From Bradyrhizobium diazoefficiens (lineage in GTDB: Bacteria; Pseudomonadota; Alphaproteobacteria; Rhizobiales; Xanthobacteraceae), in the NCBI RefSeq assembly GCF_016612535.1, contig NZ_JAENXS010000001.1:2815501-2879500 (forward strand): DNA of 64,000 nucleotides, in the 5' to 3' direction. The position numbers and the translations under genes were made by a program. The notes beneath the pieces are model-generated. The model did no database searches. It was not told the DNA's origin and was given only the letters and a program-made list of their open reading frames with translations. Shown piece by piece: positions 35,379 to 51,635 of the stretch. Position 1 is the first letter of the stretch. Each line of letters begins with the position of its first letter.

Positions 35379-35527
35379 GAGCGATCGCGTCGGTCCACCG
35401 GAGTTGTACGGGGCGGTCGGGCCAGGCCTTGCCACGCCGCGCGAATGATGGTCGATTTTAACCCGAATCAGTTTTGCGTTCTGCCCAGAATTCCTGGGTC
35501 CCCGGGATCCCGCCGCGACGGACGCAA

Positions 35528-36685: not shown

Positions 36686-36785
36686 AGCTTCCGTTCCCAT
36701 AGAATCGGAACGGAAGCTCTAGATTTCTGTTTTGACGCGTTTTCTTCACGCGAACCGGTATCCACTTCGCTGGAAAACGCTTTAG
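36683..36785. repeat. Palindromic intergenic repeat with stem-loop
   Basis: TAGAGCTTCCGTTCC (36683-36697) pairs with GGAACGGAAGCTCTA (36707-36721): a perfect 15-base stem with a 9-base loop. The TAG of the radical SAM gene is its first three bases. The following stretch to about 36785, including ACGCGTTTTCTTCACGCG, recalls a dispersed intergenic repeat of Bradyrhizobium and Rhodopseudomonas. It separates the radical SAM gene from the convergent epimerase and may serve as a bidirectional terminator. Confidence 0.65.
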
Positions 36786-37660
36786 CTGCCGATCTCGCGG
36801 CCGTAGCGATCGATCAGCGCGCCGATCTCCATCGGCTGGTAGCCGTAGCGTTCGATGGCATGCGCACTCGAGAGCATGAACGACGTTTTGGTCGGGGCGA
36901 TTTCTTCGATTTTGGCCGGCACGCCCAGTGCCCGCGCAAGGCGTTCAATGGTCTCGCGCACGGTCAGCGATCCCGCGGCCCCGAGCACCGCGGCGTCGAA
37001 GCCGCCCCAGGCCTCGCGCGCTAGCACCGCCAGGACGAGCGCGGCGATGTCGTCGATATGGGCCGCGTTGTTGAAGGGCCGGTCGAGATGGAAGGCGCGA
37101 ACCGGCTCGCCCGCGCGCAGCCGCGACGCCACGCTTGCGAGCCAATGCCGATGCGCGCCCGGACCGATGATCCCCGGCAGGCGCAGTGCCAGCGTGGAAA
37201 ATGTGCCGCCGAGCTCGGCGAGCCGCTGCTCGGCGATCAGCTTGGATGCGCCGTAAGCGTCGGGATCTTGCACCGGCGTGGCCTCGTCGACGACGTCCTG
37301 CTCGATCCGGCCATAGTAAGAGAGCGAAGAGAAGAAGATGAAGCGGCGGCTAGCCCAGCGTCGCGCCGCCTCGATCAACGCAAAGCTCGCGTCGATATTG
37401 CCGCGAACCAGCGTGGCGATATCGACGCCCGGCCCGGGTGATGTCGCCGCAATGTGCACGATGGCGTCGAACGGACCGGCAAGCTGGCCGGCATCGGCCA
37501 GATCGGTCCGGACCAACTCAAGCCGCGCGACGTCACGCAAGCGTGCCAGAAAATCCGTATCGCGGCGAAAGGTGCCGACGATATCGTGGCCACCGCTTGC
37601 GAGCCGGCGCGCCACCGTGCTGCCCGAAAAGCCGGAGGCACCGGTCACGAGCACGCGCAT
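36782..37660 (-). CDS. NAD-dependent sugar epimerase/reductase (extended SDR), last gene of sugar operon
   Basis: A 292-residue extended SDR. It has the nucleotide site VTGASGFSGSTVARRL and the Tyr-Lys pair in DAYGASKLIAE. It is shorter than the two SDRs at 43849 and 44857. The relatives include UDP-glucose 4-epimerases, NDP-sugar 4-reductases and dehydratases, so it acts on the sugar made by the operon, most likely reducing or epimerising a keto intermediate. It lies 9 bases downstream of the transketolase C-terminal subunit. Confidence 0.83.
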   Translation of the reverse strand: MRVLVTGASGFSGSTVARRLASGGHDIVGTFRRDTDFLARLRDVARLELVRTDLADAGQLAGPFDAIVHIAATSPGPGVDIATLVRGNIDASFALIEAARRWASRRFIFFSSLSYYGRIEQDVVDEATPVQDPDAYGASKLIAEQRLAELGGTFSTLALRLPGIIGPGAHRHWLASVASRLRAGEPVRAFHLDRPFNNAAHIDDIAALVLAVLAREAWGGFDAAVLGAAGSLTVRETIERLARALGVPAKIEEIAPTKTSFMLSSAHAIERYGYQPMEIGALIDRYGREIGS

Positions 37661-37669
37661 CGTTTGCCC

Positions 37670-38581
37670 TCAGCTGATCGCGGCGAGGATCCGCTCGGGC
37701 GACAGACCGTGCGCGGCGAGCAGATCGTTGGTCGAGCCGTAATTGTGGATGAAGGCGTCTTGCAGCGTGAAGGTATCGAGCCGGCAGGTGGCACGGACAT
37801 CCCACGCAATCTGCTTCACCTGCGAGGCGAGCCCGCCCTGCGGCACGTGCTCTTCGATCACGACGACATGGCGGTGCTGCTGTAGAGCGGCCGTGATGCC
37901 GTCGCGGTCGAGCGGCTTCAACGTGTGCGCCGAGACCAGCGAGACCGAGCGGCCCTGGGCAGCAAGCTTGTCGGCGACGTCGGTCGCCATCGCGGTAATG
38001 ACGCCATAGGTGAGGATGCAGACCTCGCTGCCGCGTCGCAGGTAACGCAGTTTGCCGAATTGCCAGGGCTCGGCCTGCGCCGTCAGCACCGGCTCGCCGG
38101 CCTTGCCGATGCGCAGGTAAACCGGCCCGTTCTTCTGTCGTGCACACCAGCGCGTCGCCTCGACGCATTCGAGGGGATCGCAGGGCGCCAGCACCTGCAT
38201 GTTGGGCAGTGCGGAGGCAATCGCGATGTCCTCCTGGGTATGGTGCGTGCCGCCCAGCGTCGAATAGATCACGCCCGCGCCCATGCCGACAACGGTGACG
38301 GGAAGGTTCTGGTAGCAGAGATCGTCGCGGATCATCTCGAAGGGGCGGTAGAGGCTGAAGGTGGCGATCGTGTAGGCGAAGGGCTGGCACCCCTTCAGCG
38401 CGAGCCCGGCGGCGATGCCGATCATGCTCTGCTCGGCGACACCGACATTGATGAAGCGCTCGGGATATTCGCTGGAGAATTTTGCCATGCTGCCGGCGGG
38501 CGAGATGTCGGCGACGACGATGTAGACGTCCGGGTTGGCGGTCGCCTCCGCGTACAGCGTCTCGGAAAAGGTGTTTCTCAC
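37670..38581 (-). CDS. Transketolase, C-terminal (pyrimidine and C-terminal domain) subunit
   Basis: A 303-residue polypeptide equal to the second half of transketolase/DXS. The PYR domain includes the active-site Glu region (FINVGVAEQSMIGIAAGLAL) and a TLGGTHHTQED segment with His residues at the active site. The C-terminal domain holds VVVIEEHVPQGGLASQVKQ. With the N-terminal subunit next to it (4-base overlap), it forms a thiamine-diphosphate enzyme transferring two-carbon units. Split transketolases are known in archaea and in bacterial antibiotic and sugar clusters. The setting indicates a specialised role rather than the pentose phosphate cycle. Confidence 0.88.
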   Translation of the reverse strand: MRNTFSETLYAEATANPDVYIVVADISPAGSMAKFSSEYPERFINVGVAEQSMIGIAAGLALKGCQPFAYTIATFSLYRPFEMIRDDLCYQNLPVTVVGMGAGVIYSTLGGTHHTQEDIAIASALPNMQVLAPCDPLECVEATRWCARQKNGPVYLRIGKAGEPVLTAQAEPWQFGKLRYLRRGSEVCILTYGVITAMATDVADKLAAQGRSVSLVSAHTLKPLDRDGITAALQQHRHVVVIEEHVPQGGLASQVKQIAWDVRATCRLDTFTLQDAFIHNYGSTNDLLAAHGLSPERILAAIS

Positions 38582-39393
38582 GCCTGTGTCTCCAGCTCGC
38601 GAATGGCCTGAGCATATTCGTCCTTGTTCGGCGAACGGTAGTGCCAGATCGGCGCATTCTCCATGTAGCTGACGCCCTTGCCCTTGGTGGTGCGCGCGAC
38701 GACCATCAGCGGCCGATCGCCTTTACGCGTCGATACAGCGCGATAAATCGCCGCGGGATCGTGGCCGTCGATCTCAGCTGTCTCCCAGCCGAACGCATCG
38801 AACTTCGCGGCCAGCGGATAAAGCGAAGGATGGGTCTCCGACGTGCGCCCGAGACTCTGAAAGTCGTTGTTGTCGATGAAGGCAACGATGTTGGAAAGTT
38901 TTAGCGAGGACGCCATCAGAACGGCCTCCCAGGTCGATCCCTCCTGGGTCTCACCGTCGCTCAGCACGGTGTAGATCATGCCATCGCGGCGCTTGCCGCG
39001 CTCGGCGAGCGCCATGCCCACCACCATCGGAAGGCCGTGGCCGAGCGAGCCGGTCGAGGCCTCGATGCCGGGATTGCCATAATCCGGATGCACGCCGAGG
39101 CGGCCATGCGGCGTGCAATAGGCGTCGAGGTCGGCCTTGGTGAGCACGCCGAGAGCTTCCAGCACGACGTATTGGATCATGCAGCCATGGCCTTTTGACA
39201 TTAGGAAGGTGTCGGGCGAGGACAGGCCGGGATTGCGCATCAGAGCATTGTAGATGCAGTCGACGATCTCGGTGCAGGAGAAGGCGCCGCCGATATGCAG
39301 CGCCGAGACACGTTGCGACATGTCGAGGATGCGCCGGCGGTAGCGCTGGCAGCGCGTCCGCGCCGCTGTTGCATCGAAGCTGGCTTGGGTCAT
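38578..39393 (-). CDS. Transketolase, N-terminal (ThDP-binding) subunit
   Basis: A 271-residue protein. The thiamine diphosphate motif is TVLSDGETQEGSTWEAVLMA and ends with IVAFIDNNDFQ; the first Gly of the usual GDG is Ser. The early SALHIGGAFSCTEIVDCIYN and the MSKGHGCMIQY segment carry His residues that hold ThDP and the sugar phosphate. Together with the next gene it makes a complete transketolase. Its substrates here could be fructose-6-P or sedoheptulose-7-P, or a sugar unique to this pathway. Confidence 0.88.
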   Translation of the reverse strand: MTQASFDATAARTRCQRYRRRILDMSQRVSALHIGGAFSCTEIVDCIYNALMRNPGLSSPDTFLMSKGHGCMIQYVVLEALGVLTKADLDAYCTPHGRLGVHPDYGNPGIEASTGSLGHGLPMVVGMALAERGKRRDGMIYTVLSDGETQEGSTWEAVLMASSLKLSNIVAFIDNNDFQSLGRTSETHPSLYPLAAKFDAFGWETAEIDGHDPAAIYRAVSTRKGDRPLMVVARTTKGKGVSYMENAPIWHYRSPNKDEYAQAIRELETQA

Positions 39394-39408
39394 GAAAGCG
39401 TTCTCGTC

Positions 39409-40074
39409 CTACTCGATGATCGTCCAGAAATAATCGCCGGTATAGCCGGCCTCGTTGAACAGCGCGATCCAGCCTTGCGGAGTGTCATGGAAGCGGGCGG
39501 TCAGCACCCACTCCTCGAAAATCGCCTTCTGCTCCGGCGTCCGATAGGAATCGACCTGCACGAAGGCACGGCCGCCCGACACGCGCTGAATTTCCTTCAG
39601 CGCCTGGAGACAGCCGGCACGGTCGAGATTGTGAATGGTGTTGAGCGAAATCGCCGCCTTGAAGCTGTTGTCCGGGAACGGCAGCTCCAATGCATTGCCG
39701 AGATGCAGCCGGCCGACCGTCTCCGCCTCGCAATGCATCAGCGCGTAGCGGGAGATGTCGAGCCCGAACGCTTCGAGCCCGGGACAGGCGATCATGAAGT
39801 CCTTGACCAGAAAGCCTTTGGCGCAGCCGACATCGAGCACGCGGTCGCCGGGCTTGAGGGAGAAGTGCTCAATGAAATCCTGTGCCACCGGCACCCAGCG
39901 TCCGTCATAGCGATAGCCGCCATAGCCATATTCGCGCGGACCGTCGAAATAGCTCTCGCCATATTCGCGCGAGATGCGGATGTGCTCCTCGGTCTTGGCC
40001 GTGGCGCGCGCGGAGAGATTGCGCTTGCCGCGCGGCAGTTTGGAGAGGAGGTTCACTTCAGCCATAGATGTCAT
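39409..40074 (-). CDS. Class I SAM-dependent methyltransferase
   Basis: A 221-residue methyltransferase. The SAM motif I is DRVLDVGCAKGFLVKDFMIA, with FGLDISRYALMH as motif II and FKAAISLNTIHNLDR further on. A long N-terminal segment rich in Tyr/Gly (ESYFDGPREYGYGGYRYDGR) precedes it and may bind the acceptor. It starts at ATG 40074 (or 40065) just after the dehydrogenase-like gene ending at 40085, and precedes the transketolase subunits by 15 bases. A sugar O- or C-methyltransferase in the operon's pathway is the best guess. Confidence 0.8.
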   Translation of the reverse strand: MTSMAEVNLLSKLPRGKRNLSARATAKTEEHIRISREYGESYFDGPREYGYGGYRYDGRWVPVAQDFIEHFSLKPGDRVLDVGCAKGFLVKDFMIACPGLEAFGLDISRYALMHCEAETVGRLHLGNALELPFPDNSFKAAISLNTIHNLDRAGCLQALKEIQRVSGGRAFVQVDSYRTPEQKAIFEEWVLTARFHDTPQGWIALFNEAGYTGDYFWTIIE

Positions 40075-40084
40075 CCAGTACGTG

Positions 40085-41359
40085 TCACGGCGTACGCGCG
40101 CCGAGCGTGCGATAGTCCAGGCCCGCCGCGCGCGCGGCGGCGGCATCGAGCAACCGGTAGGGGTCGAGGACCAGCCGCCCGCGCATGGTGCGCGCGAGAT
40201 CGGCGGGCGCGAGTTCGCGGAATTCCGGCCAGCGTGTCATGATCGCCAGTGCATCGACGTCGCGCGCAGCCTCGAGCGCGTTCTGGGCGGCCGTCAGATT
40301 CGGATGCTGGGCGGCGGAGGCGGGCACCGCCGGATCGAACGCGCGCACCGGCCACGCCGCGAGCTGCGCGATCAGTGCCAGCGCCGCTGAGTTCTTTATC
40401 GAATGCGTGTTCTCCTTGTAGGCAAGGCCGAGCACGCCGATTTTCGCTTGCGGCGTCGTTGCCAGCAGCACCTCGTGCAATTCGCGTAGCGCCCAGTCCT
40501 TGCGATGCCCGCTGTTGGCGACGATGGCGCGGATCATGCTGGAATCGGTTCCGTGCTGCTGCGACAGCCGCATCACGGTGGCAAGGTCGCGCTCGATATT
40601 GCCGCCGGCGAGCCCCAGCCCCGGTGCGAGATAGGCATACGGGCCGATGCGCGCGTCGAGTTTCAGGGCGGGAGCGATCTCCGACCAGTCGGCGCCGACG
40701 CGCTCGCAGAGCTCGGCGAGCGTGTTGGCGGTGGTGACGGATGCGGCCAGCGCGCAGTTGATAGAAATTTTTGCAAGCTCGGCGCTTTCCAGCCGCATCG
40801 GCAGCAGCGGGCAGCCGAAGGACTTAAGGAAGCTCTGCCAGGCGGACGGCAATGGCGCGTCCGGATCGAGGCAGCCCAGGATGAAACGTTCAGGTTTGGT
40901 TGCGCGCTCGACGGCACGGCCGAACACCAAGGTCTCGACCTGGTAGAGAATTGTGCGGCCGGGACGCTGCCGGGCGCGGGTAAAGCCCGGCGGTACCTGG
41001 CTGAGGATGACGACGGTCGCATCGTCGCGCGTGTTGGCGAGCACGCTGTCGAGCAGGGCATCGATGCCGCTGAGGTCGCTGACGCCGGTCCCATCGGTTG
41101 GCACGTCGGGCGCGACGTAGACGAGGTCGCACGCGTGCAGCATCGTCGCGTCGGCAGAGAAGTTGATGCATTCGCGACGCGCGCGCAGGAGATCGTCGAG
41201 CCCGGGCTCGCGCACCGGCAGATCACCTGCAGTGATGCGGCCGATCAGGTGCGCGTCGGCATCGAAGCCGAGCGTCGTAAAACCCTGGGCGGCTGCGGCG
41301 ATGGCCGAGCAGAGGCCGAGATGGGTCATTCCGGCATAAGCGATACGGGGCTGGCTCAT
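40085..41359 (-). CDS. Nucleotide-sugar 6-dehydrogenase homologue without catalytic Cys
   Basis: A 424-residue protein of the UDP-glucose/GDP-mannose dehydrogenase family. The three domains are recognisable: a degenerate Rossmann start (YAGMTHLGLCSAIAAAAQGF), a central helix with Lys (SAELAKISINCALAASVTTA), and the C-terminal domain (KIGVLGLAYKENTHSIKNSA). The catalytic thiol loop, normally GFGGxCxxKD, reads GLGLAGGNIERDL: Asn254 replaces Cys and Arg replaces the usual Pro/Lys region. The two-step oxidation to a uronic acid needs that Cys, so this protein should stop at an aldehyde or do another redox step. It overlaps the Gfo/Idh gene by 4 bases. Confidence 0.85.
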   Translation of the reverse strand: MSQPRIAYAGMTHLGLCSAIAAAAQGFTTLGFDADAHLIGRITAGDLPVREPGLDDLLRARRECINFSADATMLHACDLVYVAPDVPTDGTGVSDLSGIDALLDSVLANTRDDATVVILSQVPPGFTRARQRPGRTILYQVETLVFGRAVERATKPERFILGCLDPDAPLPSAWQSFLKSFGCPLLPMRLESAELAKISINCALAASVTTANTLAELCERVGADWSEIAPALKLDARIGPYAYLAPGLGLAGGNIERDLATVMRLSQQHGTDSSMIRAIVANSGHRKDWALRELHEVLLATTPQAKIGVLGLAYKENTHSIKNSAALALIAQLAAWPVRAFDPAVPASAAQHPNLTAAQNALEAARDVDALAIMTRWPEFRELAPADLARTMRGRLVLDPYRLLDAAAARAAGLDYRTLGARTP

Positions 41360-42285
41360 GCGGTGTTCCCCGCCTGAATTTCGTGGCCGAGCCGCGTCAG
41401 TGCGCGATGCAGCCAGATGTCATTGGCGAGATCGGTCTCCGCGGCTGTTTCGCAGAGCTGCTTGAAGTGCGCATATTCGAGCGTCCAGGTCGGATCGTCC
41501 TGCACCAGGATTTCGCTGAGCTCCGGTGGACGGCCGCTCGGCAGCACGCGGGTGCGGTGGATGAAGCTGCTCGGGCCCCATTTGCATAGCGATTCGATAT
41601 GCGCCGAGCCGTGCTCGGCGAAGACGTCGCAGGTGAAATGGTTGCGCCAGGACAACAGCGTCATCTCGAGCTCGATCTGCGGGCGTCCCTCCGCGGCGAT
41701 CACCACATGATCCGGCGCGCGATTCTCGAACCGTTCCGCCGAGACGATGCGGAAATTGTCGGCGCCGTCGCCGAACCAGAAGCGCACGGTGTCGAGCAGA
41801 TGCGAGCCGAGATCGCCGAGAACGCCGTCGCCGGTGTCGCGCCAGGCCGAGTTGCGCACCAGCCGCGCGGTACCGTTGCCGTAGAACATGCGGCAGCGAT
41901 AGATCGCGCCGAGGCGCCCGGATTGCAGCAGGTCACGCATTCGCGCGAAATGCGGCTCGAAGCGGTGGTTGTAGGCGGTGACGCACAGCACGCGCCTGCG
42001 GCGGGCGAGCGCTTCGAGCGCGCGAAGATCGTCGCCGTTCGCGGCAAACAGCGGCTTCTCTACCAGCACATGCTTGCCGCGCTCGAGCAGATACCGCAGC
42101 AACGCGATCTTGGGGGCGTCCGGCGTGCAGACGATGGCCGCATCGAAGCGGTTGACAGGAACATCTTCAAGACGGCGCCAGTTGGCCTCCGGCGTAACGG
42201 GATCGACGATCCCGATTGCATCCTCGCCCGCGACCTTGAAACGCTTGTGGCCCTGGACTCCGTACCCGACGACGATGACTTTCAT
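41356..42285 (-). CDS. Gfo/Idh/MocA-family oxidoreductase
   Basis: A 309-residue NAD(P)-dependent enzyme with the N-terminal Rossmann fold (KVIVVGYGVQGHKRFKVAG) and the EKP motif (RGKHVLVEKPLFA) whose Lys is catalytic. GDLGSHLLDTVRFWFG is the usual Asp-His segment. Members oxidise or reduce sugar hydroxyls, often the C3 of NDP-sugars. I chose the ATG at 42285 because the Rossmann motif starts there; the open frame upstream lies inside the HldE-like gene in another frame. It is coupled to the dehydrogenase-like gene by a 4-base overlap. Confidence 0.88.
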   Translation of the reverse strand: MKVIVVGYGVQGHKRFKVAGEDAIGIVDPVTPEANWRRLEDVPVNRFDAAIVCTPDAPKIALLRYLLERGKHVLVEKPLFAANGDDLRALEALARRRRVLCVTAYNHRFEPHFARMRDLLQSGRLGAIYRCRMFYGNGTARLVRNSAWRDTGDGVLGDLGSHLLDTVRFWFGDGADNFRIVSAERFENRAPDHVVIAAEGRPQIELEMTLLSWRNHFTCDVFAEHGSAHIESLCKWGPSSFIHRTRVLPSGRPPELSEILVQDDPTWTLEYAHFKQLCETAAETDLANDIWLHRALTRLGHEIQAGNTA

Positions 42286-42292
42286 CGCGGCC

Positions 42293-43852
42293 TCAGCGGT
42301 ACTGCGCTTGTCGCTCGAGACGGTCGATCTTGTCGAGAATGTCGTTCGGCTCGGTCGGCACGTTGCCCTGGTGCTCGCAGGCGACCGCGGCGGAGAGCGA
42401 ACCGAGCACGGCCGCGACGACAGCATTGCCGGTGAGATACATGGCCGGTGCGGCATAGGCGAGCAGCGCGTCGCCGGAGCCGACGGCATCGACGACATTG
42501 TCGGCAAAGCTGTCGACGGCGAAAAAGGAGCGGACGTCCTCGTCGCTCTTCGGCTCGCCGCGGAAGGCCATCAGGCCGCGCGGGCCGAGCTTGAGCAGCA
42601 GCGTCTTGCAGTGCGCCTGGCGGTACAGCTCGGTGCCGAGCGGGCGCACCACCGAGTCCTGGTCGCCGAGCGCGAACCGGGCCTCACGCTCGTTCGGCGT
42701 GATGAGGTCAAAACCCTGGAATTCGAGGATGTTGCCCCAGCGGCTCGCGACCTGCGAATCGGCGACCCGGAAGGCGGTCTTCGGAATTGCGTTGATCAGA
42801 TGCGGAATGGTCTCGCGGTTGAAGATGCCGTGACGGAAGTCCGTGAACACGACAATATCGGCCGGCACCGATGCGATGCGATCGACCAGCGTGCTGACGA
42901 TGCGTTCGGAGATGGGGCGGTTGTCGACGCGGTCGACCTTGAGCAAATGATGGCCGGCGGCGACGATGACGTCCTTGTTGGTCGTCGGCCGGTTCGGATC
43001 GACGATGGCGTGGAAATCGATGTCGGTGTTGCCGAGGTCGCGCTTGACGAATCCGCCGGTCGCGTCATCGCCCAGCACGGTCGAGAAGGTCACCTTTGTG
43101 CCGGCGCTGGCGAGATGTTTAGCGACGATACCGGCGCCGCCGACGAAATCCTGCTTCTCCTCGAAGCGCACGCTCATGGTCGGCGTCTTGGTACCGCCGC
43201 CGATCACGGCGCAGCGCGTGTAGGTGTCGACGATGGTGTCGCCGATCACGTGGACGCGCAGATCGTGAAAGCGGTCGAGCACGCCACGCAGGCTGTCGAA
43301 ATCGAGGTGCTCGGCATAGAGCAGCGTCAGGAGCTTTTCGGTCGCGATCGAGGGCGGCGCCGTCTCGATGATGTGCGAGGACGAGAACACGATGTCGCCC
43401 GGCGTGAAGATCAGCTCGCCGCCATAGGCCTCGACCGCGTCCTTCTCCTCGGCTGTGCGGGGATGCAGCCCGGCTGCCGTGTATTCGTACCCCTTTGCGA
43501 AGATGTCGGGCTCGATCAGGCGGATGTTCTCGATCGGCGTCGGCTTCGGGTCGATCATCACGTAGTCGACGGCCTCGAGCGCTGCGAGGTTGAAGGCGCG
43601 GAGCTCCTGCGGCACGAAGGGCCGGAAATTCGCTTTCAGGATATGTGCGTCCGCCGTCAGGCTCGCGATCAGAATGTCGCCCTTGCTCTTGGCGTAGAGC
43701 AGATGGCGGACATGGCCGGGATGCACGACGTCGAAGGTGCCGTGGCACATGATGGCCTTGCGCTTGCGTGGACGCCGACCGATCAGCGCAGCGATCTCGG
43801 CTGCGCTCTTCAGCTTGTGGCTCACCATGCGATGGGTCGCATCGTCCATCAT
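42293..43852 (-). CDS. Fused sugar-phosphate nucleotidyltransferase and PfkB kinase, reverse of HldE order
   Basis: A 519-residue two-domain protein. Residues about 30-180 are a cytidylyltransferase-like domain with the HxGH motif at 43-46 (GTFDVVHPGHVRHL). Residues about 220-510 are a PfkB/ribokinase domain with its GGAGIVAKHLASAGTKVTF substrate loop and the DAVGSGD catalytic motif at about 456-462. In HldE the kinase comes first and the adenylyltransferase second; here the order is reversed. HldE phosphorylates heptose-7-P at C1 and later attaches AMP. The same two reactions are expected here, on a heptose or a related sugar phosphate. Its ATG overlaps the upstream epimerase stop by 4 bases. 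Confidence 0.85.
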   Translation of the reverse strand: MMDDATHRMVSHKLKSAAEIAALIGRRPRKRKAIMCHGTFDVVHPGHVRHLLYAKSKGDILIASLTADAHILKANFRPFVPQELRAFNLAALEAVDYVMIDPKPTPIENIRLIEPDIFAKGYEYTAAGLHPRTAEEKDAVEAYGGELIFTPGDIVFSSSHIIETAPPSIATEKLLTLLYAEHLDFDSLRGVLDRFHDLRVHVIGDTIVDTYTRCAVIGGGTKTPTMSVRFEEKQDFVGGAGIVAKHLASAGTKVTFSTVLGDDATGGFVKRDLGNTDIDFHAIVDPNRPTTNKDVIVAAGHHLLKVDRVDNRPISERIVSTLVDRIASVPADIVVFTDFRHGIFNRETIPHLINAIPKTAFRVADSQVASRWGNILEFQGFDLITPNEREARFALGDQDSVVRPLGTELYRQAHCKTLLLKLGPRGLMAFRGEPKSDEDVRSFFAVDSFADNVVDAVGSGDALLAYAAPAMYLTGNAVVAAVLGSLSAAVACEHQGNVPTEPNDILDKIDRLERQAQYR

Positions 43853-44856: not shown

Positions 44857-45849
44857 TCATCTGGCCCCGAGCTTCTTCATGGTGCGGACGTTGTAGTACC
44901 AGTCGTCGTCAAAGCTGTTCGGCAGCAGGTGATTGACGAAGGCGCGAGCGAGGTCGCGCATTGCGTCCTCGATCGTCCGTGCGGGCGCGTAGCCGAGCAC
45001 GCGACGGATCTTGTCGGAATTCACGTGATAGGAGCGATTGTCGTCCGACGGCGTGGTAACGATGCCGATCTCGCGGCCGCTCCTCGCCTCGACGACGGAT
45101 TTCACCATGCTGGCGAGGTCGGCGATCGCGTGGTTCTCGAAGCCGATATTGAAGGTCTCGCCGTGGATATTGTCGTGCGGCGCCGTCAGCATCAGCCGGT
45201 AGGCGTCGACCATGTCCTCGATATGGAGGTTGGGCCGCATCTGCCTGCCGCCGAACACGGTGATGACGCCCTTGTTCACGGCGTGGTTGGTGAGGATGTT
45301 GACGGAGAGGTCGAGCCGCGTGCGCGGACTGTAGCCGCAGACCGTCGCGGGCCGCACCGTGACGCAGGTGAAGTCGTCCGCCTTGTGCTTCCACAGCAGC
45401 GGCTCGCACATGCCCTTGAACTTGTTGTAGAGCGTCAGCGGCACCAGGGGATGCTCTTCGGTCACGTTGGGCGCGTCGCTGACACCGTAGACTGAACTCG
45501 TCGAGCAATAGACGAAGCGCTTCACGCCCGCTCTTCGCGCTGCGACCACCATCGGTTCGAAACAGTCGTAGTTGATGGTCCTGGAGAGGTTCTCGTCGAG
45601 CTCGAAGCTCGCATCGTTGGAGATGCAGGCGAGATGCAGCACGGCATCCTGGCCCTTGAGATGGGTGGCAAGCTTCGCGGTGTCGCGGATGTCGCCCTTT
45701 ACGACGCGCAGGTTCGGATGGTTCGGCAGCCGGCAACCGAAGAACAGGAGGTCGTAGACGGTGACGTTGTAGCCGTCGGCGAGCAGGCGCGGGACCAGGA
45801 CATGGCCGACATAACCGGCGCCGCCGGTGACGAGGACGTTCTTGAGCAT
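44857..45849 (-). CDS. NDP-sugar epimerase/dehydratase (extended SDR)
   Basis: A 330-residue extended SDR. The NAD site is NVLVTGGAGYVGHVLVPRLL and the catalytic pair is in LTLYNKFKGMCEP, with CSTSSVYGVSD supplying Ser/Thr. FGGRQMRPNLHIEDMVDAYR is the sugar-nucleotide end. It resembles GDP/UDP-sugar epimerases linked to LPS. It is 15 bases downstream of the transaldolase gene and directly abuts the next SDR. Confidence 0.87.
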   Translation of the reverse strand: MLKNVLVTGGAGYVGHVLVPRLLADGYNVTVYDLLFFGCRLPNHPNLRVVKGDIRDTAKLATHLKGQDAVLHLACISNDASFELDENLSRTINYDCFEPMVVAARRAGVKRFVYCSTSSVYGVSDAPNVTEEHPLVPLTLYNKFKGMCEPLLWKHKADDFTCVTVRPATVCGYSPRTRLDLSVNILTNHAVNKGVITVFGGRQMRPNLHIEDMVDAYRLMLTAPHDNIHGETFNIGFENHAIADLASMVKSVVEARSGREIGIVTTPSDDNRSYHVNSDKIRRVLGYAPARTIEDAMRDLARAFVNHLLPNSFDDDWYYNVRTMKKLGAR

Positions 45850-45864
45850 TGCAATCCGGTGTCG

Positions 45865-46635
45865 TTAACGATCGATACGCCCGACCACGCGTTTCCTGGC
45901 CGGCTTGCGCGGCGACAACTCGTAGCCGGCCGCGAGCGCGTCATTGCGGAACATGGCGACGGTCTCGCGCGAGTAAACGTCGAGGTCCTTGCCGACCAGG
46001 TCGAATTTCTTCAGCAGGTCGGCGGACAGCGTGATGATGTGGCAGCCGATGGCATCCGCCTGGAACAGATTGAGCAACTCGCGCGGGCTGGCCCACAGCA
46101 GTTGTGCAGCCGGACGATCGACCAGGATTTCCAGAGCCTCCGCCATCATCGCGACCGGATCGCGGCCGGTGTCGGCGATGCGCCCGGCAAACACCGAGAC
46201 GATCGCCGGCGTCTTGGGGTCGAGCACTTTACAGACGCGTTCGACCTGGCTCAGCGTGAGAATGGCAGTGACGTTGACCTTCACGCCCTCGCGCGCGAGC
46301 TCGGCGATGGCGGGGCCGCAGAACTCGCCGCGGGTGGTCGTCACCGGAAGCTTGACATAGACGTTCGGGCCCCACGAGGCGATCTCGCGAGCTTCGTGAG
46401 TGATGGTGGCGAGGTCGTCGCCCAGCACTTCGAAGCAGATCGGCCGGTCGCGCACCATACCCAGCGCCGCGCAGCCGAACGTGCGGTAGTCGCCGACGCC
46501 CGCCGCGCGCATCAGCGACGGGTTGGTCGTGAAGCCCTTGATCCGCGGATCGAGCGAGGTGCGCTGGATCGTCGCGAGATCCGCGCCGTCGCCAAAGATC
46601 TGGATATTGAGCGCGTCAATGCTCAGTGCGTTCAT
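45865..46635 (-). CDS. Transaldolase-family protein
   Basis: A 256-residue short transaldolase/fructose-6-phosphate aldolase. The Schiff-base lysine is Lys95 in NVYVKLPVTT, the N-terminal Asp lies in IQIFGDGADLATIQ, and IKGFTTNPSLMRAAG and KVNVTAILTLSQVERV are family motifs. Transaldolase moves a dihydroxyacetone unit between sugars and can make sedoheptulose-7-P from erythrose-4-P and fructose-6-P. Placement among NDP-sugar genes implies supply or extension of the sugar backbone in this pathway. It is separated by 164 bases from the SIS gene upstream. Confidence 0.85.
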   Translation of the reverse strand: MNALSIDALNIQIFGDGADLATIQRTSLDPRIKGFTTNPSLMRAAGVGDYRTFGCAALGMVRDRPICFEVLGDDLATITHEAREIASWGPNVYVKLPVTTTRGEFCGPAIAELAREGVKVNVTAILTLSQVERVCKVLDPKTPAIVSVFAGRIADTGRDPVAMMAEALEILVDRPAAQLLWASPRELLNLFQADAIGCHIITLSADLLKKFDLVGKDLDVYSRETVAMFRNDALAAGYELSPRKPARKRVVGRIDR

Positions 46636-46718
46636 GTCGCGTAAGCCCCTTCAGCTCGTTGCCCGCCGGATCGCCCCAAAAGCGTCCGGCCTGCCAGGTC
46701 AAACTCATCCACTCTTGT

Positions 46719-46739
46719 GCCGGACGGGTTCCGCCCGGC
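46719..46739. terminator. Hairpin between the SIS and transaldolase genes
   Basis: GCCGGACGG pairs with CCGCCCGGC (one mismatch) around a 3-base loop. There is no T-run, so it may only attenuate transcription or protect the mRNA between the SIS gene and the downstream operon genes. Confidence 0.35.
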
Positions 46740-46799
46740 GCAACAAGACGACTCACGCACGACGCAAAATACTCCCCCCGGAGTCCCCAGGCCAGCGCC

Positions 46800-47537
46800 T
46801 CACCATTTGGTGGCGCTGCGCTGCAACTTCGGATGCGAAACCAGGCAATGCCAAACCACGGCCTGGAACGCTTCGGCATGCGGCGTGACACGCTGCTCAG
46901 CCGCGGTAGGAATGACGACGACGACGTCACCGGCCTGTTTCGCATAGCCGCCGTCGCGTCCGACGATGCCGAGCACGCGCGCGTTCTTCGCCTTCGCCTC
47001 CTTCACCGCTGCGACGATGTTGGGGCTGACATTGCGTTCGAGATTGCCGCCGCCGACCGAGAGAACCAGGATGGCGTCGCGCGCTCCGATGCGGCTGACC
47101 CGCAGCCATTCGGCGAACACGCTCGGCCAGCCCTCGTCATTGGTGCGGGCGGAGAGTTCCGAGACGTTGTCGGTCGGTGCGTAGGCCTCGATGCCGCACA
47201 GCTTGCGGAAGTCATTGACGGCGTGGCTCGCGTTCGCGGCACTGCCGCCGACGCCGAGGATGAACAGCCGGCCGCCGCGCTCACGTAAGCCGACGAGCTC
47301 GTCGCAGAGCGCCTCGATCTCGCCTGCCGGCAAGGCCTGCGCGATCTCGCAGACCTCCCGCAAATATTGGGCGACGTGTTCCACCTTCGCGAGCGGCCCC
47401 GTTTGTGTGTCGTCGAGCCCGGTGTGCGGGCCAGCCGGCGAATCACCGCTGACCTGATTATCCCGCCGCGAATCCCGACGCACGGCCGCAATCCGCGCCA
47501 CCGTAGTCTTACGTGTGTCCGCGGATTGCTGTTCCAT
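46800..47537 (-). CDS. SIS-domain sugar-phosphate isomerase (GmhA-like)
   Basis: A 245-residue protein. After a flexible, possibly disordered 45-residue N-terminus, the SIS fold is clear: GRLFILGVGGSAANASHAVN, a second loop ILVLSVGGGNLERNVSPNIV, and GIVGRDGGYAKQAGDVVVVI. The layout and the final His-rich helix (TPHAEAFQAVVWH) resemble GmhA, which converts sedoheptulose-7-P to D-glycero-D-manno-heptose-7-P. It heads the sugar operon. I chose the ATG at 47537; a longer frame continues to 47594. It is divergent from the TylF-type gene at 47755. Confidence 0.85.
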   Translation of the reverse strand: MEQQSADTRKTTVARIAAVRRDSRRDNQVSGDSPAGPHTGLDDTQTGPLAKVEHVAQYLREVCEIAQALPAGEIEALCDELVGLRERGGRLFILGVGGSAANASHAVNDFRKLCGIEAYAPTDNVSELSARTNDEGWPSVFAEWLRVSRIGARDAILVLSVGGGNLERNVSPNIVAAVKEAKAKNARVLGIVGRDGGYAKQAGDVVVVIPTAAEQRVTPHAEAFQAVVWHCLVSHPKLQRSATKW

Positions 47538-47754
47538 GTCTGTGTTCTGAGTCGATTCGGGGCCGCCGAACGATAGGCCGGGGGCAGTTATCAACAGGTC
47601 GTGCGCCGAAACGCCTCCCGCACCGCCCCAATCAGGCGCCGCAAGCGCCCGCTGGCCTTGATCGGCGGCTCGCTTAAGCTATCACGCGCTGATTCCATCC
47701 CGCGGCCCGATACCGGAGGGGGGAACACAGAATATCTCCAGCCGGTGAAGCGCC

Positions 47755-48537
47755 ATGAGCAGCGATCGTAGCGACGACGTCCCCCCGGAGCCTGCGACCG
47801 GGATCAGGTCGCTCGCCTGCGAGCCCTGGGTCGAGATCGCCGATGGTGCTGCGCTTGCGAACTGGTCGGCGGAGGACGAGATCCGCTACAACCAGCAGAA
47901 CCGGCAGAGCGAGAAGCTGAGATTCTTCCGCCAGGTCTTCGATTTCCTGAAGGAGAACGAGATCGCCGGCGATTACCACGAATTTGGCTGCCACCGCGCG
48001 CGCACCTTCCGCATGGCGCTGACGGAGGCACGGCGCAAGAACCTTGGCGACATGGCGTTCTGGGCGTTCGACAGCTTTGCCGGCCTGCCTGCGCCCGAAA
48101 CCGAGACCAGCGTCGGCAAATGGACGCAAGGCGCGCTCGCGACCTCGGAACAGGAGTTCTTGCGCCTGATCGGCGAGCACGGCATCTACACGGATAAGGT
48201 GCGCACAGTGAAAGGCCTCTATGGCGATTCACTTACATCCGCCCTGAGACAGCAATTCGCAGACAGCGGGCGCAAAATCGCGCTCGCGACCATCGACTGT
48301 GATCTCTATGAGTCCGCCGTCCCCGTGTTCGACTTCATCGAGCCGCTACTTCAGGCCGGGTCGGTGCTCTATATCGACGATCTCTTCGTCGGCAACCGCG
48401 GCAATCCCGGCCGCGGCCTGGCGCGGGCCTTTGTCGAATACCGCCAGCGCTCGCGCTGGCGCTTCGTCCGCCATCTCGACATCGGCTGGTGGGGGCGGTC
48501 CTATATCGCCTCCGAGACCGAGACGGATCTGATCTGA
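47755..48537 (+). CDS. TylF/MycF-type sugar O-methyltransferase
   Basis: A 260-residue protein of the TylF (macrocin O-methyltransferase) family. GDYHEFGCHRARTFRMALTE corresponds to the SAM site, and the metal-binding Asp pair lies in IATIDCDLYESAVPVFDFI-like and LYIDDLFVG segments. Family members methylate sugar hydroxyls, in macrolides or surface glycans, with Mg2+. It is the only plus-strand gene of the cluster, divergent from the SIS gene and convergent with the C-methyltransferase (6 bases between stops). GGTGAAG precedes the ATG. Confidence 0.85.
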   Translation: MSSDRSDDVPPEPATGIRSLACEPWVEIADGAALANWSAEDEIRYNQQNRQSEKLRFFRQVFDFLKENEIAGDYHEFGCHRARTFRMALTEARRKNLGDMAFWAFDSFAGLPAPETETSVGKWTQGALATSEQEFLRLIGEHGIYTDKVRTVKGLYGDSLTSALRQQFADSGRKIALATIDCDLYESAVPVFDFIEPLLQAGSVLYIDDLFVGNRGNPGRGLARAFVEYRQRSRWRFVRHLDIGWWGRSYIASETETDLI

Positions 48538-48543
48538 GGCGCT

Positions 48544-49755
48544 TTACGGGTCGAACAGGCTCGCGATCAGGCCCGGACTATCCGGATCCGCTGCACGCAA
48601 CGTGTAGACGGGCCCGCGATATCCCATCGCCGAGATTTTTCGTGCGATCTCGGCATCGTGCAGATAGGCCGCGATGACGATGGCCGCCATGCCGGCGAGG
48701 CGTTCGCCGCGCGGTGGTTCGATCGCGATCTCGCCCGCAGGGCCGTAGACGCAGCGTCCCGCATAGGAGGCGGTGTCGTCGAAAACAGCGGCGAAGGGGG
48801 TGCTCTCCTGATAGAGGCCGAGCAGCGCCTGCGCATAGGCGTTGGCGCCGTAGAGTGCGATCGGACCGTCGATCGCGGCGAGGCGCCGTGCCGCCCGTGC
48901 GCGCCGTTCGGCCAACGCCGCCAACAAGCCTTCGGACGACATCTCGGACGAGGCGGGGACCTCCCGCGCCTGCGGCTCCGCGGCACGCAGCAGGAAGCCG
49001 ACATCATGGCCCTGCTTAATGTCGAACACCTCCGCGACCGCAAAGCCGGCACGCGCGAGCAGCCACTCCATCTCGGCGCGCCGGTAGTAGTGCACGTGCG
49101 GATAGTGGAAATCGACGATCGAATGGCGGCGCAAGATGTCGTCGGCGCTCGGCAGTTCGAGATAGGCGATGCCGTCATCGGCAAGGCTCACGCGCAGCGC
49201 GGCCAGGAACGGCGCAGGCTCAGGCACATGCTCGATGACCTGGCGGCACACGACTGCATCGAAGCGGCGCCCGGCCAATGCCGGGACCGGGAACATCGCG
49301 CGGTGCAGCGTTACGCCGGTGCCGGCAAAGCGCTCGGGCCGAAGCGCACGGCTGGGTTCGACCAGATCGACGCGCGCGGATCTTCGTGCCAGCGCCAGCG
49401 ACAGCGCGCCGCCGCCGCCACCGACCTCGAGCACGGCGGGGTCCTGTTTCAGATGCCGCATGATCAGCGCCGCGGTTTCGTCCACGGCGGCGATCATGCC
49501 GGGGCTCACCGGCTCGTTGGTCAGGACCAGCGCGCCATAGAGCTCATCGGCTGCGTCAGTGTCGAAGGCTCGGTTGGAGAGGTGACCGCACACACTACAT
49601 GCCACGATGTCCAGCTGGCCGAAGCCGCTGGCGGCATCCGTCATGCCGGTCGGCCGCACGGCGTGCATCGGCGTGCGCGCCACCGACCATATCGTCACCG
49701 CATCGCCCGATCCGCAGACGACGCAGCGATGCGGCGTGGCGGCGGGCTTAGTCAT
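48544..49755 (-). CDS. Zinc-finger class I C-methyltransferase (TylCIII/Methyltransf_13-11-14 type)
   Basis: A 403-residue three-part enzyme. The N-terminal putative zinc site has HRCVVCGSGD and VACSVCGHLSN (four Cys). The middle SAM domain has VLEVGGGGGALSLALARRSA. The C-terminal domain (IALYGANAYAQALLGLYQ, ending YTLRAADPD) matches the Methyltransf_14 unit. This architecture is that of NDP-sugar C-methyltransferases acting on 4-keto sugars, and of related enzymes in deoxysugar and LPS pathways. It abuts the UGM-like gene (stop 49756), so both are one operon. Confidence 0.85.
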   Translation of the reverse strand: MTKPAATPHRCVVCGSGDAVTIWSVARTPMHAVRPTGMTDAASGFGQLDIVACSVCGHLSNRAFDTDAADELYGALVLTNEPVSPGMIAAVDETAALIMRHLKQDPAVLEVGGGGGALSLALARRSARVDLVEPSRALRPERFAGTGVTLHRAMFPVPALAGRRFDAVVCRQVIEHVPEPAPFLAALRVSLADDGIAYLELPSADDILRRHSIVDFHYPHVHYYRRAEMEWLLARAGFAVAEVFDIKQGHDVGFLLRAAEPQAREVPASSEMSSEGLLAALAERRARAARRLAAIDGPIALYGANAYAQALLGLYQESTPFAAVFDDTASYAGRCVYGPAGEIAIEPPRGERLAGMAAIVIAAYLHDAEIARKISAMGYRGPVYTLRAADPDSPGLIASLFDP

Positions 49756-50907
49756 CTAGCGCCAGGCCTCGATCGGCACCGGATGATCGCGGCCGCCTTC
49801 GGCGATCTGCCGCGCCATCACCATCGCCTGCTCGAGGCAGTCGTCGATGTCGAGGCCGTAGCGATAGCTGCCGGCACGGCCGATCGAATAGACGTGGTCG
49901 GGCATCAGTGCGTAATATTTGCGCGCGAGCTCCTGCTCGGACTTGAACGGCAGCGGATAATGCTTGCCGTTGTGCGAGGGGATCTCCATGCCGACGAGGC
50001 TGGTCGGCGATTTGTGGTGGGTGAACTTCTTGTATTCGACGAGGCGGGTGAAGGCCTCGTCGTTGGCGTAATAGAGGAAATAGACGTGTTCGGGGAAGAC
50101 GTGCTCGGTCGGCAGCACGATCTTGTGGAAGTCGCGGCCGATGAAGGCGAGCTCGCCATGGCAGCGGCCGAACGGCTCGTCCGGCGAGATGGTCGAGATG
50201 ATGACGTCGTATGTGTGCTTCTCGCCGCCGAACCAGACCGCACGTGCCGGCAAATCGTAACGCTCGATGCGGGTCGACAGCAGCACGCGGGCGCCTTCGG
50301 TCGCTACGCCGAAATAGCGGTTGTAGCCGTCTTCCGCATGCGGATAGGCCGACCATGCGGTGTCCCACGCAGCGCGCGAGCCGCTCTTGATGGTGACGCC
50401 CTTCGGCGACCAATTGAAGGTGTCGATGCGCTTGTTGTCGTCGACCAGCCACATCTTCTTGTTGTACTTGTCGATCAGCTTGTCATAGAGCGTCTGGCCG
50501 ACCGAGCCGACCCAGTATTCCTCGAGGTTCTTTGCCTCAGAGACGCCGCGCGCCGACTGGCGCTCCGCGGCGATCTTCGCGCTGTCGGGCATCAGCGCGA
50601 TGTCGTCCTCGTGAATCGGATAATTGTAGAAGGCGTTGTCGCGCTCCACATAGGTGATGAACTGGTGATCGGCGCAGGAGCGCAACGGAACGATCGCGTC
50701 CATGTAGTCGTACACGGCGCGGTTCTGGGTCAGGAAGTGGCGCGGGCCGAAGGTATAGGGATGACCGCCATACCAGAAGGTGCGAACGCCGGCGCCGAGG
50801 AACGGCGCGGCCTCCACGATCGTCACGTCCCATCCGCCCAGCTTCATGAGCTGATGTGTCGCCGCGCAGCCGGCGATGCCGCCGCCGATCACCAGAGCTG
50901 TCTTCAT
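49756..50907 (-). CDS. UDP-galactopyranose mutase-like flavoprotein
   Basis: A 383-residue FAD protein. The FAD site is ALVIGGGIAGCAATHQL, and GVRTFWYGGHPYTFGPRHFL with ITYVERDNAFYNYPIHEDDI strongly resembles UDP-galactopyranose mutase. NLEEYWVGSVGQTLYDKLID and the C-terminal MPDHVYSIGRAGSYRYGLDI continue the match. UGM reversibly converts a nucleotide hexopyranose to the furanose through a flavin adduct. In this cluster it could act on the heptose or a related sugar. I chose the ATG at 50907. Downstream is the methyltransferase, upstream a tandem repeat and the HAD gene. Confidence 0.85.
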   Translation of the reverse strand: MKTALVIGGGIAGCAATHQLMKLGGWDVTIVEAAPFLGAGVRTFWYGGHPYTFGPRHFLTQNRAVYDYMDAIVPLRSCADHQFITYVERDNAFYNYPIHEDDIALMPDSAKIAAERQSARGVSEAKNLEEYWVGSVGQTLYDKLIDKYNKKMWLVDDNKRIDTFNWSPKGVTIKSGSRAAWDTAWSAYPHAEDGYNRYFGVATEGARVLLSTRIERYDLPARAVWFGGEKHTYDVIISTISPDEPFGRCHGELAFIGRDFHKIVLPTEHVFPEHVYFLYYANDEAFTRLVEYKKFTHHKSPTSLVGMEIPSHNGKHYPLPFKSEQELARKYYALMPDHVYSIGRAGSYRYGLDIDDCLEQAMVMARQIAEGGRDHPVPIEAWR

Positions 50908-50930
50908 CGGTCCGGTCCAGTCCCCTCGCG

Positions 50931-50970
50931 AATCGGCAAGACACAAATCGGCAAGACACGAATCGGTAAG
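50931..50970. repeat. 15-base tandem repeat upstream of the mutase-like gene
   Basis: AATCGGCAAGACACA, AATCGGCAAGACACG and a partial AATCGGTAAG lie in tandem between the HAD-phosphatase gene and the mutase-like gene, 24 bases before the latter's start. It may affect spacing of a promoter or leader and could vary in copy number. Confidence 0.7.
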
Positions 50971-51017
50971 CCTTGTCGATACAGGTCAAGCCGGTATCGG
51001 CGAACGGCCGGACCGCG

Positions 51018-51635
51018 TCAATCGGGCTGGCCGGCTTGTCCGTATTCCCCAGGATGGGCGATGCAGAACGCGACGGCCTCGCCAACGTCGGAAAACATCC
51101 GGTCGGGCGTCGGTGGCGCGCGATCCGAATAGCGCTCGATATCGCGGCAGGCATAGCCGGTCCGCACGCCGTAGCTCTTCAATCCCATCGCGTGGCCAGC
51201 GCCAATGTCGCGCAGGCTGTCGCCGATCAGCGCGGAACGGCTGATATCGATGTCGAAATCGGCAACCGCCCGGCGCAACAGCAGTGTTCCGGGCTTGCGG
51301 CACTCGCAGGCGATCTGGAAATCCGGCGCGCCGCCCGCTGTTCCCCGCTCCGGATGATGCGGGCAGAAATAGATGGCATCGACGAGGCCGCCGTCCTGCG
51401 CCAGCAATTCGCGAAGCCGTGCGAAAATCGTCTCGAGGCCGGCAAGGGTGACAAAGCCCTTCGCCACCTGCGCGCGGTTGGTGACGATGATGGCGAGGTA
51501 GCCCGCCTCTCGCGCCGCCCGCACGGCCCCGCCTGCGTCCGGGATCAACCGGATATCGTCCGGCCCCAGCACGCCGTGGCCGCCCGGCTCCTCGTTCAGC
51601 ACGCCGTCACAGTCGAAGAAGATGGCAGGTCGCAT
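51018..51635 (-). CDS. HAD-IIIA phosphatase (GmhB-like)
   Basis: A 205-residue HAD phosphatase. The DxD nucleophile and acid are Asp8 and Asp10 (IFFDCDGVLNEE), with IIVTNRAQVAKG for motif II and ALIGDSLRDIGAGHAMG for motifs III/IV. A Cys/His zinc site of the GmhB type is present (YFCPHHPERG ... ACECRKPG). GmhB removes the 7-phosphate of heptose-1,7-bisphosphate; histidinol phosphatases are related. It completes the set of heptose enzymes: isomerase, kinase, phosphatase, nucleotidyltransferase. It starts the minus-strand run that includes the mutase-like and C-methyltransferase genes. Confidence 0.85.
   Translation of the reverse strand: MRPAIFFDCDGVLNEEPGGHGVLGPDDIRLIPDAGGAVRAAREAGYLAIIVTNRAQVAKGFVTLAGLETIFARLRELLAQDGGLVDAIYFCPHHPERGTAGGAPDFQIACECRKPGTLLLRRAVADFDIDISRSALIGDSLRDIGAGHAMGLKSYGVRTGYACRDIERYSDRAPPTPDRMFSDVGEAVAFCIAHPGEYGQAGQPD

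Follow-up and report, generated by a model that had tools for sequence, protein, structure and literature searches.

The octose gene set of the lincosamides, antibiotics that include lincomycin, is described as comprising the transaldolase LmbR, the isomerase LmbN, the phosphatase LmbK, the guanylyltransferase LmbO and the kinase LmbP, and then LmbM, LmbL and LmbZ (PMC4351081). LmbR is reported to join a C3 unit to ribose 5-phosphate, making an octulose (PMC5854111), and LmbM, LmbL, CcbZ and CcbS to convert the GDP-octose (PMC12945683). For bradyrhizose, a C10 bicyclic sugar on the surface of certain symbionts of plants, an operon serving the O-antigen of photosynthetic Bradyrhizobium has been reported (Busset 2016, PMC4743980); an insertion in gdh, within a "cluster of eleven genes," removed bradyrhizose from the lipopolysaccharide, the authors allow for polar effects, and the parts of that paper that treat its synthesis call the genes for it unknown. 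Split-gene transketolases (TKs) have been proposed to add a hydroxyacetyl group to a ketosugar in miharamycin and amipurimycin, a reaction that the section of PMC12247030 on these enzymes gives as not shown in vitro. Here we describe a gene cassette in a 64,000-nucleotide stretch of Bradyrhizobium diazoefficiens (GCF_016612535.1, contig NZ_JAENXS010000001.1, positions 2,815,501 to 2,879,500; "the window"), part of contig C1 in a 7.99 Mb genome, that probably makes and remodels a nucleoside diphosphate sugar (NDP-sugar) with seven or more carbons, an octose being the likeliest, and adds a two-carbon (C2) branch to it late.

Named open reading frames (ORFs) were translated and then scanned with Pfam and NCBIfam models, and the gene evidence given here consists of family matches. 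Eleven minus-strand genes run from that of a SIS-domain isomerase (46800-47537) to that of SDR3 (36782-37660), one of three short-chain dehydrogenase/reductases (SDRs), with intergenic gaps of -4 to 15 nt and a sole wide gap of 164 nt directly after the SIS gene. A second minus-strand run holds genes for a GmhB-like phosphatase, a UDP-galactopyranose-mutase-like (UGM-like) protein and a methyltransferase, and a plus-strand TylF gene lies between both runs. This gene list was first drawn up in a first-pass annotation made from the letters of the window, and it was borne out, all of the genes being uninterrupted ORFs with family matches at the expected places. A scan of species genomes with the HldE-type fusion protein of the cassette returned 260 related stretches, and the best 80 of the 260 loci were analyzed.

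The first of two active-site substitutions lies in the UDP-glucose-dehydrogenase (UGD) homologue (40085-41359, minus strand; PF03721/PF00984/PF03720), which passes only the broader NCBIfam subfamily models. Where 4a7p and other solved UDP-glucose dehydrogenases carry GGSCFPKD, the window protein aligns AGGNIERD, with Asn (residue 254) opposite the catalytic Cys. Family alignments took from each locus its best ORF with a query coverage of 70% or more, which for UGD gave 71 of the 80 loci plus the window; Asn occupied the Cys position in 72/72 rows, and the upstream Lys and Asn (ELAKISIN), like the EKP motif of the neighboring Gfo/Idh protein, were retained by 95% or more of the rows. Both other UGD-family genes in the host genome keep the Cys (GGSCFPKD). 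A canonical Cys-bearing UGD is seen at C1:2785587-2785865, ∼30 kb left of the window.

The catalytic Cys of UGD is needed for the aldehyde-to-acid step, and without it a two-electron oxidation remains. Because Asn replaces this Cys, the homologue should stop at the ketone, which would suit a sugar with a secondary C6 (a heptose or an octose), and this argument is independent of the resemblance of other cassette proteins to GmhA and HldE. One uniform replacement with the other catalytic positions kept suggests altered activity rather than loss. An improbable alternative is an ordinary modified heptose or hexose pathway, in which the TK and transaldolase would only raise precursor supply and the UGD homologue would have a structural or binding role. 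O-antigen clusters often contain genes for modified heptoses, but the retained Lys/Asn and EKP residues, together with a single residue throughout at the Cys position, speak against this alternative.

The second substitution lies in the split TK, whose thiamine diphosphate (ThDP)-binding N-terminal half (TKN) is encoded at 38578-39393 and whose C-terminal half (TKC) is encoded at 37670-38581, both on the minus strand. The best solved relative of TKN (PF00456) is 6yak, the N-terminal chain of a split TK, and that of TKC (PF02779/PF02780) is 6yaj; both halves miss the NCBIfam equivalog cut-offs. We compared 40 cassette TKs, namely those of the window, of 28 loci of the 80-locus set (TKC at least 55% identical), and of 5/5 bradyrhizose-type and 6/6 third-type loci of Bradyrhizobium described below. 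The ThDP-binding half was present (PF00456; alignment to 6yak), and the catalytic Glu (E411 equivalent) and the H473 equivalent were kept in 40/40. The counterparts of H461, D469 and R520 (E. coli numbering), which we take to hold the phosphate and hydroxyl of the aldose-phosphate acceptor, were G, L and K in 40/40 (G101, L109 and K160 in the window) and H, D and R in both housekeeping TKs of the host genome.

Being split does not by itself account for these changed residues, as judged from the Carboxydothermus split TK (6yaj), the sole split TK outside the cassettes that was compared, because it keeps THAGLTVGEDGASHQ and GRSG. Weak TKC matches (<55%) in the 80 loci were E1 beta chains (6/7) and a 654-aa frame in locus L096, and supplied no further split-TK control. 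Since the acceptor residues are changed, the cassette TK likely acts on an acceptor other than an aldose phosphate.

The ThDP enzyme of the cassette also differed among loci. By a stricter count, the 80 loci comprised 28 with the TK pair, 14 with an E1 alpha/beta pair and 0 with both; restricting the set to the 55 loci whose 3' flank spans 6 kb or more gave 28, 13 and 0 (Fisher one-sided 1.4e-5, a guide only, as the loci are related). Loci L134 and L106 agree in their genes from SIS through SDRy, after which L134 has E1a-E1b and L106 has TKN-TKC; L112 resembles L106 but carries an additional ABC ATPase gene between SIS and GmhB. In some loci the E1 pair was separated from the block or encoded on the opposite strand. 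Pfam scans of two E1 loci (L134 and L069) showed E1_dh plus Transket_pyr/Transketolase_C, and no lipoyl E2 was found in the one ORF scanned near the E1 genes per locus (10/14 loci), which gave SDRs, RmlD-like, NUDIX and DegT proteins or no family. YerE-like decarboxylases, E1-type enzymes and split TKs are described as the ThDP classes making C-branched sugars (PMC12247030; also PMC4753412).

These data bear on the proposal of the first-pass annotation that TK and transaldolase jointly supply sedoheptulose 7-phosphate, which would then undergo GmhA/HldE/GmhB-type activation and heptose remodelling. Enzymes of the GmhA, HldE and GmhB types are indeed present, and the loss of the UGD Cys fits a heptose equally, C6 being secondary in heptose and octose. 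However, joint synthesis of the precursor is not supported: the host genome carries two other full-length TKs and another transaldolase, transaldolase was matched in 65/80 loci versus 28/80 for the TK pair, an E1 pair takes its place in 14 others, and the acceptor site carries the G/L/K changes. We therefore regard this route as unlikely, and because of the same four features (other TKs in the genome, a TK pair in 28/80 loci only, the E1 substitution and the changed acceptor site), the TK looks like a late C2-branching enzyme.

Housekeeping counterparts extend to the heptose enzymes. The host's own HldD lies on contig C3 (L149; 408.1 bits versus a cut-off of 274.6), beside its own HldE, whose two domains have the usual order and score 393.2 of 345 and 208.2 of 181.5 bits, the protein falling slightly below the full-length model (485.5 of 521 bits); the domain order of the cassette fusion is reversed relative to it. 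A Wzy_C-type gene follows at C3:107658, and this region resembles the rfaD/rfaE/rfaL neighborhood described for strain ORS285 (PMC4743980). Because the host's own HldD/HldE, TKs and transaldolase sit elsewhere in the genome, the cassette is, as far as family matches tell, a second and divergent set of several activities, apart from the housekeeping set.

Searching 146 genomes of the genus with the fusion protein separated three cassette types: the window type in 5/146 genomes (host included; 96-100% identity), the bradyrhizose type in 5/146 (31-32% over about residues 36-512) and a third type in 42/146 (30-33% over about residues 6-493). Among the strong matches listed, no genome belonged to two of the three groups, and the four genomes without any fusion match are 67-89% complete. 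Both published gdh primers fell inside one SDR gene of the second-type operon, convergent and 358 bp apart, in 5/5 loci (L042-L046; 1-5 mismatches). Identity of the window cassette with the bradyrhizose operon was rejected, since the primers fall in this different, related operon. It has the same 11 genes, order and strand in 5/5 loci, encoding an HldE fusion, an NTP_transferase, SDR1, SIS, Gdh, TKN, TKC, a zinc alcohol dehydrogenase (Zn-ADH), a 205-aa protein, an APH kinase and a methyltransferase.

The two operons share the reversed HldE fusion, SIS, SDR1, the split TK with its G/L/K substitutions and a methyltransferase, but NTP_transferase, APH, Zn-ADH and the 205-aa protein replace transaldolase, UGD and Gfo/Idh. 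When the bradyrhizose-operon proteins were used as tblastn queries against a window-type locus (L041), 7/11 matched, with Gdh at 27% only and at the SDR2 position, and the NTP_transferase, Zn-ADH, 205-aa and APH proteins gave no match in that locus. The proteins in common are about 28-45% identical (SDR1, 43-45% in L044-L046; the methyltransferase, 40-43% in L042-L044 and L046), and a different product is expected. The 205-208-aa protein (L044:4771-5397), which has no Pfam match, is 41-44% identical to the protein at an HAD-like position of the third type and is possibly the phosphatase of the operon.

A link between the cassette and photosynthesis was rejected, PF00124 being absent from the window genome. 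This family was present in 2/5 window-type, 2/5 bradyrhizose-type, 1/6 third-type and 1/8 other genomes, and three of the five bradyrhizose-type genomes (G032, G097 and G082, with the operon in L044, L045 and L046) had no photosynthetic reaction-centre match. A strict tie of the bradyrhizose-type operon to photosynthetic strains does not fit. In the third type, SDR2 and SDR1 (55-57% identity) flank the fusion in 20/20 loci read, the other 22/42 being typed by match range. TK halves, a methyltransferase and further genes were found in six loci (L047-L052), and Pfam scans of single members identified HAD, APH, two DegT aminotransferases and a nearby LPG_synthase_TM protein. Because of the two aminotransferases, the third type probably makes an amino version of such a sugar.

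Outside the genus, the titles of the 80 loci name Alpha-, Beta-, Gamma- and Deltaproteobacteria, Nitrospirae, Acidobacteria and others. A large number of the loci come from metagenome-assembled genomes (MAGs), whose names are unreliable, and some titles look wrong. Three environmental MAG records that carry the cassette (L101, L104 and L112), for example, are titled Bordetella parapertussis, which looks unreliable. An invention confined to Bradyrhizobium was rejected, as related cassettes were found in several phyla. The recurring block consists of SIS, GmhB, transaldolase, two SDRs, the reversed HldE, Gfo/Idh and the UGD homologue, often with a methyltransferase (MT) and the split TK. A simple ORF caller was used, and tblastn counts are the safer ones; with a lenient threshold that takes in some weak paralogue matches, they were, per 80 loci, HldE 80, Gfo/Idh 78, SDR2 78, UGD 76, SDR1 74, transaldolase 65, GmhB 60, SIS 57, MT 52, TKC 33, TKN 30, SDR3 17, UGM 11, the second-run methyltransferase (CMT) 8 and TylF 7. 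The TylF loci are Bradyrhizobium-type in 6/7 cases and the CMT loci in 6/8.

Per-gene thresholds and enough flank left a stricter set of 51 loci, 45 of them outside Bradyrhizobium. All eight core genes were present in 28/45 of the latter and at least six in 40/45. With GmhB left unscored, 30 loci outside Bradyrhizobium had every one of the seven scored genes, and 28 of these 30 kept them in one order on one strand. Co-occurrence across genomes, which had been suggested as a check on the pathway when the cassette was first annotated, is thus evident from a block that recurs across the 80 loci. Closer to the host, SDR2 was matched at E <= 1e-100 in 39/296 genomes of the host family; identity reached 67% or more in 23 of these and was 54-58%, the level of the third cassette type, in the other 16. 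Loci with a 96-97% identical fusion are titled Bradyrhizobium (B. campsiandrae, B. manausense and others), except one titled Frankia sp. RB7 (L061, JAUEPE010000004.1), which is probably a mislabelled Bradyrhizobium. In a protein search with TKC, the best 120 of 5451 matches were all at least 83% identical, and the organism-named ones were Bradyrhizobium.

The second run probably belongs to the same pathway as the 11-gene run, because homologues of its genes and of TylF lie beside cassettes elsewhere and the GmhB-like gene, apart in the window, is flanked by the SIS and transaldolase genes in many other genomes. A UGM homologue (62-76% identity) adjoins the cassette in five non-Bradyrhizobium loci (L067, L070, L073, L080 and L085); L070 has UGM and TylF homologues beside the cassette, and L073 has UGM and a CMT homologue (38%).

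From the genes present and their conserved order, both active-site substitutions, the replacement in the ThDP slot and homology to the bradyrhizose operon, we infer each reaction of the following scheme. Transaldolase would add a C3 unit onto ribose 5-phosphate, yielding octulose 8-phosphate, by analogy with LmbR, or, as a fallback, use erythrose 4-phosphate to give a C7 product; octulose would be a likelier backbone than sedoheptulose because a dedicated transaldolase is present where the cell already has one. The SIS enzyme would then form the aldose, the kinase domain of the fusion phosphorylate C1, the GmhB-like enzyme take off the terminal phosphate and the nucleotidyltransferase domain produce the NDP-sugar, which SDR1 and SDR2 may epimerise. 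The Cys-less UGD homologue would oxidise the secondary alcohol at C6 to a ketone, with Gfo/Idh as a second redox step, and the split TK would move a hydroxyacetyl group from a ketose donor to the ketone, so that a tertiary alcohol arises and the sugar becomes branched, with nine or ten carbons (C9/C10). The last modifications would fall to SDR3, the UGM-like mutase and the methyltransferases, and a glycosyltransferase elsewhere would use the finished sugar. A dedicated pathway to a higher-carbon nucleotide sugar that is later remodelled, with transfer genes elsewhere, was already the core of the first-pass annotation and is supported here.

Compared with the lincosamide genes of Streptomyces, the cassette is alike by class in its transaldolase, isomerase, phosphatase, kinase, nucleotidyltransferase, epimerase, dehydrogenase and oxidoreductase. 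We take LmbL to be UGD-type and LmbZ to be Gfo/Idh-type. In contrast to the lincosamide set, the cassette has kinase and nucleotidyltransferase in one reversed HldE-type protein, lacks a counterpart of the aminotransferase LmbS, and adds the split TK, the UGM-like mutase and several methyltransferases, and its hosts are mostly Gram-negative. It resembles the ADP-heptose pathway (GmhA, HldE, GmhB, HldD) in enzyme types and in the likely order of the activation steps, but differs in missing the equivalog cut-offs, in its reversed domains, in its extra redox and ThDP enzymes and in having no SDR that reaches the HldD cut-off. As in the proposed TK step, YerE and AviB1/B2-type enzymes are ThDP enzymes that add a C2 unit to a ketosugar (PMC12247030, PMC4753412), and E1 alpha/beta pairs fill the TK slot of other cassettes; the YerE and AviB1/B2-type examples described act on deoxy-ketohexoses with pyruvate as donor. 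The 13 split-gene TKs listed in PMC12247030 are all from Streptomycetes and, like the cassette TK, are two-gene TKs proposed to add hydroxyacetyl to a ketosugar.

The same parallel raises the alternative of a small-molecule sugar as the product, in place of a surface-glycan component. Besides the shared enzyme classes, this would fit the fact that no glycosyltransferase or polysaccharide exporter lies within the cassette span, as the first-pass annotation had noted, and that none was found among 24 further ORFs scanned in the window and to the right of it; three MFS/HlyD-type efflux genes were not counted as glycan export and were left out of this total. On the other hand, some loci have ABC-2-type exporter genes close to the cassette (ATPase 12/80 and permease 7/80 in one count, 10/80 and 9/80 in another; Pfam of one each), and the related bradyrhizose operon serves the O-antigen. 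We consider a small-molecule product very improbable.

Several points weigh against our preferred scheme of a branched octose. The loci were picked by their HldE match and are related through descent and transfer, so the counts are not independent. GmhB-like matches outside Bradyrhizobium are only 27-37% identical, and the lincosamide likeness is drawn from function names only, not from Lmb sequences. The backbone may be C7 or C8, the lincosamide parallel favoring C8. No transaldolase, UGD or Gfo/Idh enzyme is found among the 11 bradyrhizose-operon genes, one of which has no Pfam match. Neither a TK nor an E1 pair is present in 14 of the 52 loci with at least 8 kb of 3' flank, and C2 branching therefore looks optional, not universal. 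Genes of the acetohydroxyacid synthase (AHAS) type occur in 6/80 loci by blastp, three without either pair, two with E1 and one with TK, and in 3/80 by stricter tblastn; this co-occurrence led us to reject them as an exclusive alternative in the ThDP slot.

A broader and more tentative reading, to which we give somewhat less than even weight, is that of a cross-phylum cassette for branched decoses, in which an octose backbone formed by a dedicated transaldolase is oxidised to a ketone by the Cys-less UGD homologue and receives C2 from whichever ThDP enzyme fills the slot (TK, E1 or perhaps AHAS-type); the same altered TK in the bradyrhizose operon would then account for both the C10 skeleton and the tertiary C4 alcohol of bradyrhizose. 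The ring closures of bradyrhizose are reported to use the hydroxyls at positions 4, 5 and 9 (PMC9912281). If so, C4 carries C3, C5, C9 and a hydroxyl. By our arithmetic, a C7 backbone, C2 from TK and one methyl group, which we take C10 to be, would give the ten carbons.

The remaining gene assignments are as follows, all on the minus strand in the 11-gene run. The first gene encodes a GmhA-like SIS-domain sugar-phosphate isomerase (PF13580, 34.9 bits) that does not reach the gmhA equivalog model (54.9 bits, cut-off 209.45). The transaldolase (45865-46635; PF00923) passes the TIGR02134 equivalog (304.4 bits versus 281.95), and VK(I/L/V)P, an instance of VKxP, presumably the Schiff-base Lys motif, is present in 65/65 cassette homologues. 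SDR1 (44857-45849; PF01370), which is NAD-dependent epimerase/reductase-like, has TSSVYG and YNKFK motifs, and the DE dehydratase motif was not seen in it; SDR2 (43849-44856; PF01370), NAD-dependent epimerase-like, has SSSCYG and YALSK, and SDR3, the last gene, is again epimerase/reductase-like (PF01370). The HldD model TIGR02197 was unmet by all three (SDR1 61.0, SDR2 105.0 and SDR3 47.2 bits). The first annotation was right in calling a fused kinase/nucleotidyltransferase (42293-43852; PF01467 and PF00294), although the order it gave is wrong, the nucleotidyltransferase (HxGH) coming first and the PfkB kinase (GxGD) second; the fusion stays below rfaE dom I (135.6 of 345 bits) and dom II (92.3 of 181.5 bits), and H45, G47, H48, G459, G461 and D462 are invariant in 10 aligned sequences. 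The Gfo/Idh/MocA oxidoreductase (41356-42285; PF22725, PF01408, PF02894), with its EKP motif intact, reaches no NCBIfam cut-off and finds only general relatives among solved structures. MT (39409-40074) is a SAM-dependent methyltransferase (Methyltransf_11).

Between the runs, TylF (47755-48537, plus strand) is a putative O-methyltransferase (PF05711, 55.5 bits). CMT (48544-49755, minus; PF13489, 74.1 bits) had been called a C-methyltransferase; that it is a methyltransferase stands, but it shows only general methyltransferase domains in Pfam and reaches no NCBIfam cut-off, and C-methylation is a guess. The UGM-like flavoenzyme (49756-50907, minus; PF03275, 105.3 bits) falls short of TIGR00031 (74.9 bits, cut-off 303.75), and a change in the ring size of the new sugar is a possible role. 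The GmhB-like HAD phosphatase (51018-51635, minus) passes the subfamily models TIGR01656 and TIGR01662 and not NF006506 (121.4 bits, cut-off 178). Just past the 3' end of the operon, a radical SAM/SPASM protein gene (35474-36685, plus) adjoins that of a triple-rhodanese protein (34146-35378), and genes for PhnI (phosphonate) and a phosphonate-binding protein lie immediately right of the window (L054).

No description of such a cassette turned up in the result lists of the open-licence literature searches, subscription literature lying outside their reach. Outside Streptomyces, the cassette offers dozens of candidate enzymes for TK action on a ketosugar, with a clear residue signature and a genetically anchored relative, the bradyrhizose operon, available. 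These results suggest that sugars of eight or more carbons may figure more widely in bacterial surface glycans than has been recognised and, if the proposal is true, it would provide a first biosynthetic scheme for the carbocyclic sugar bradyrhizose.

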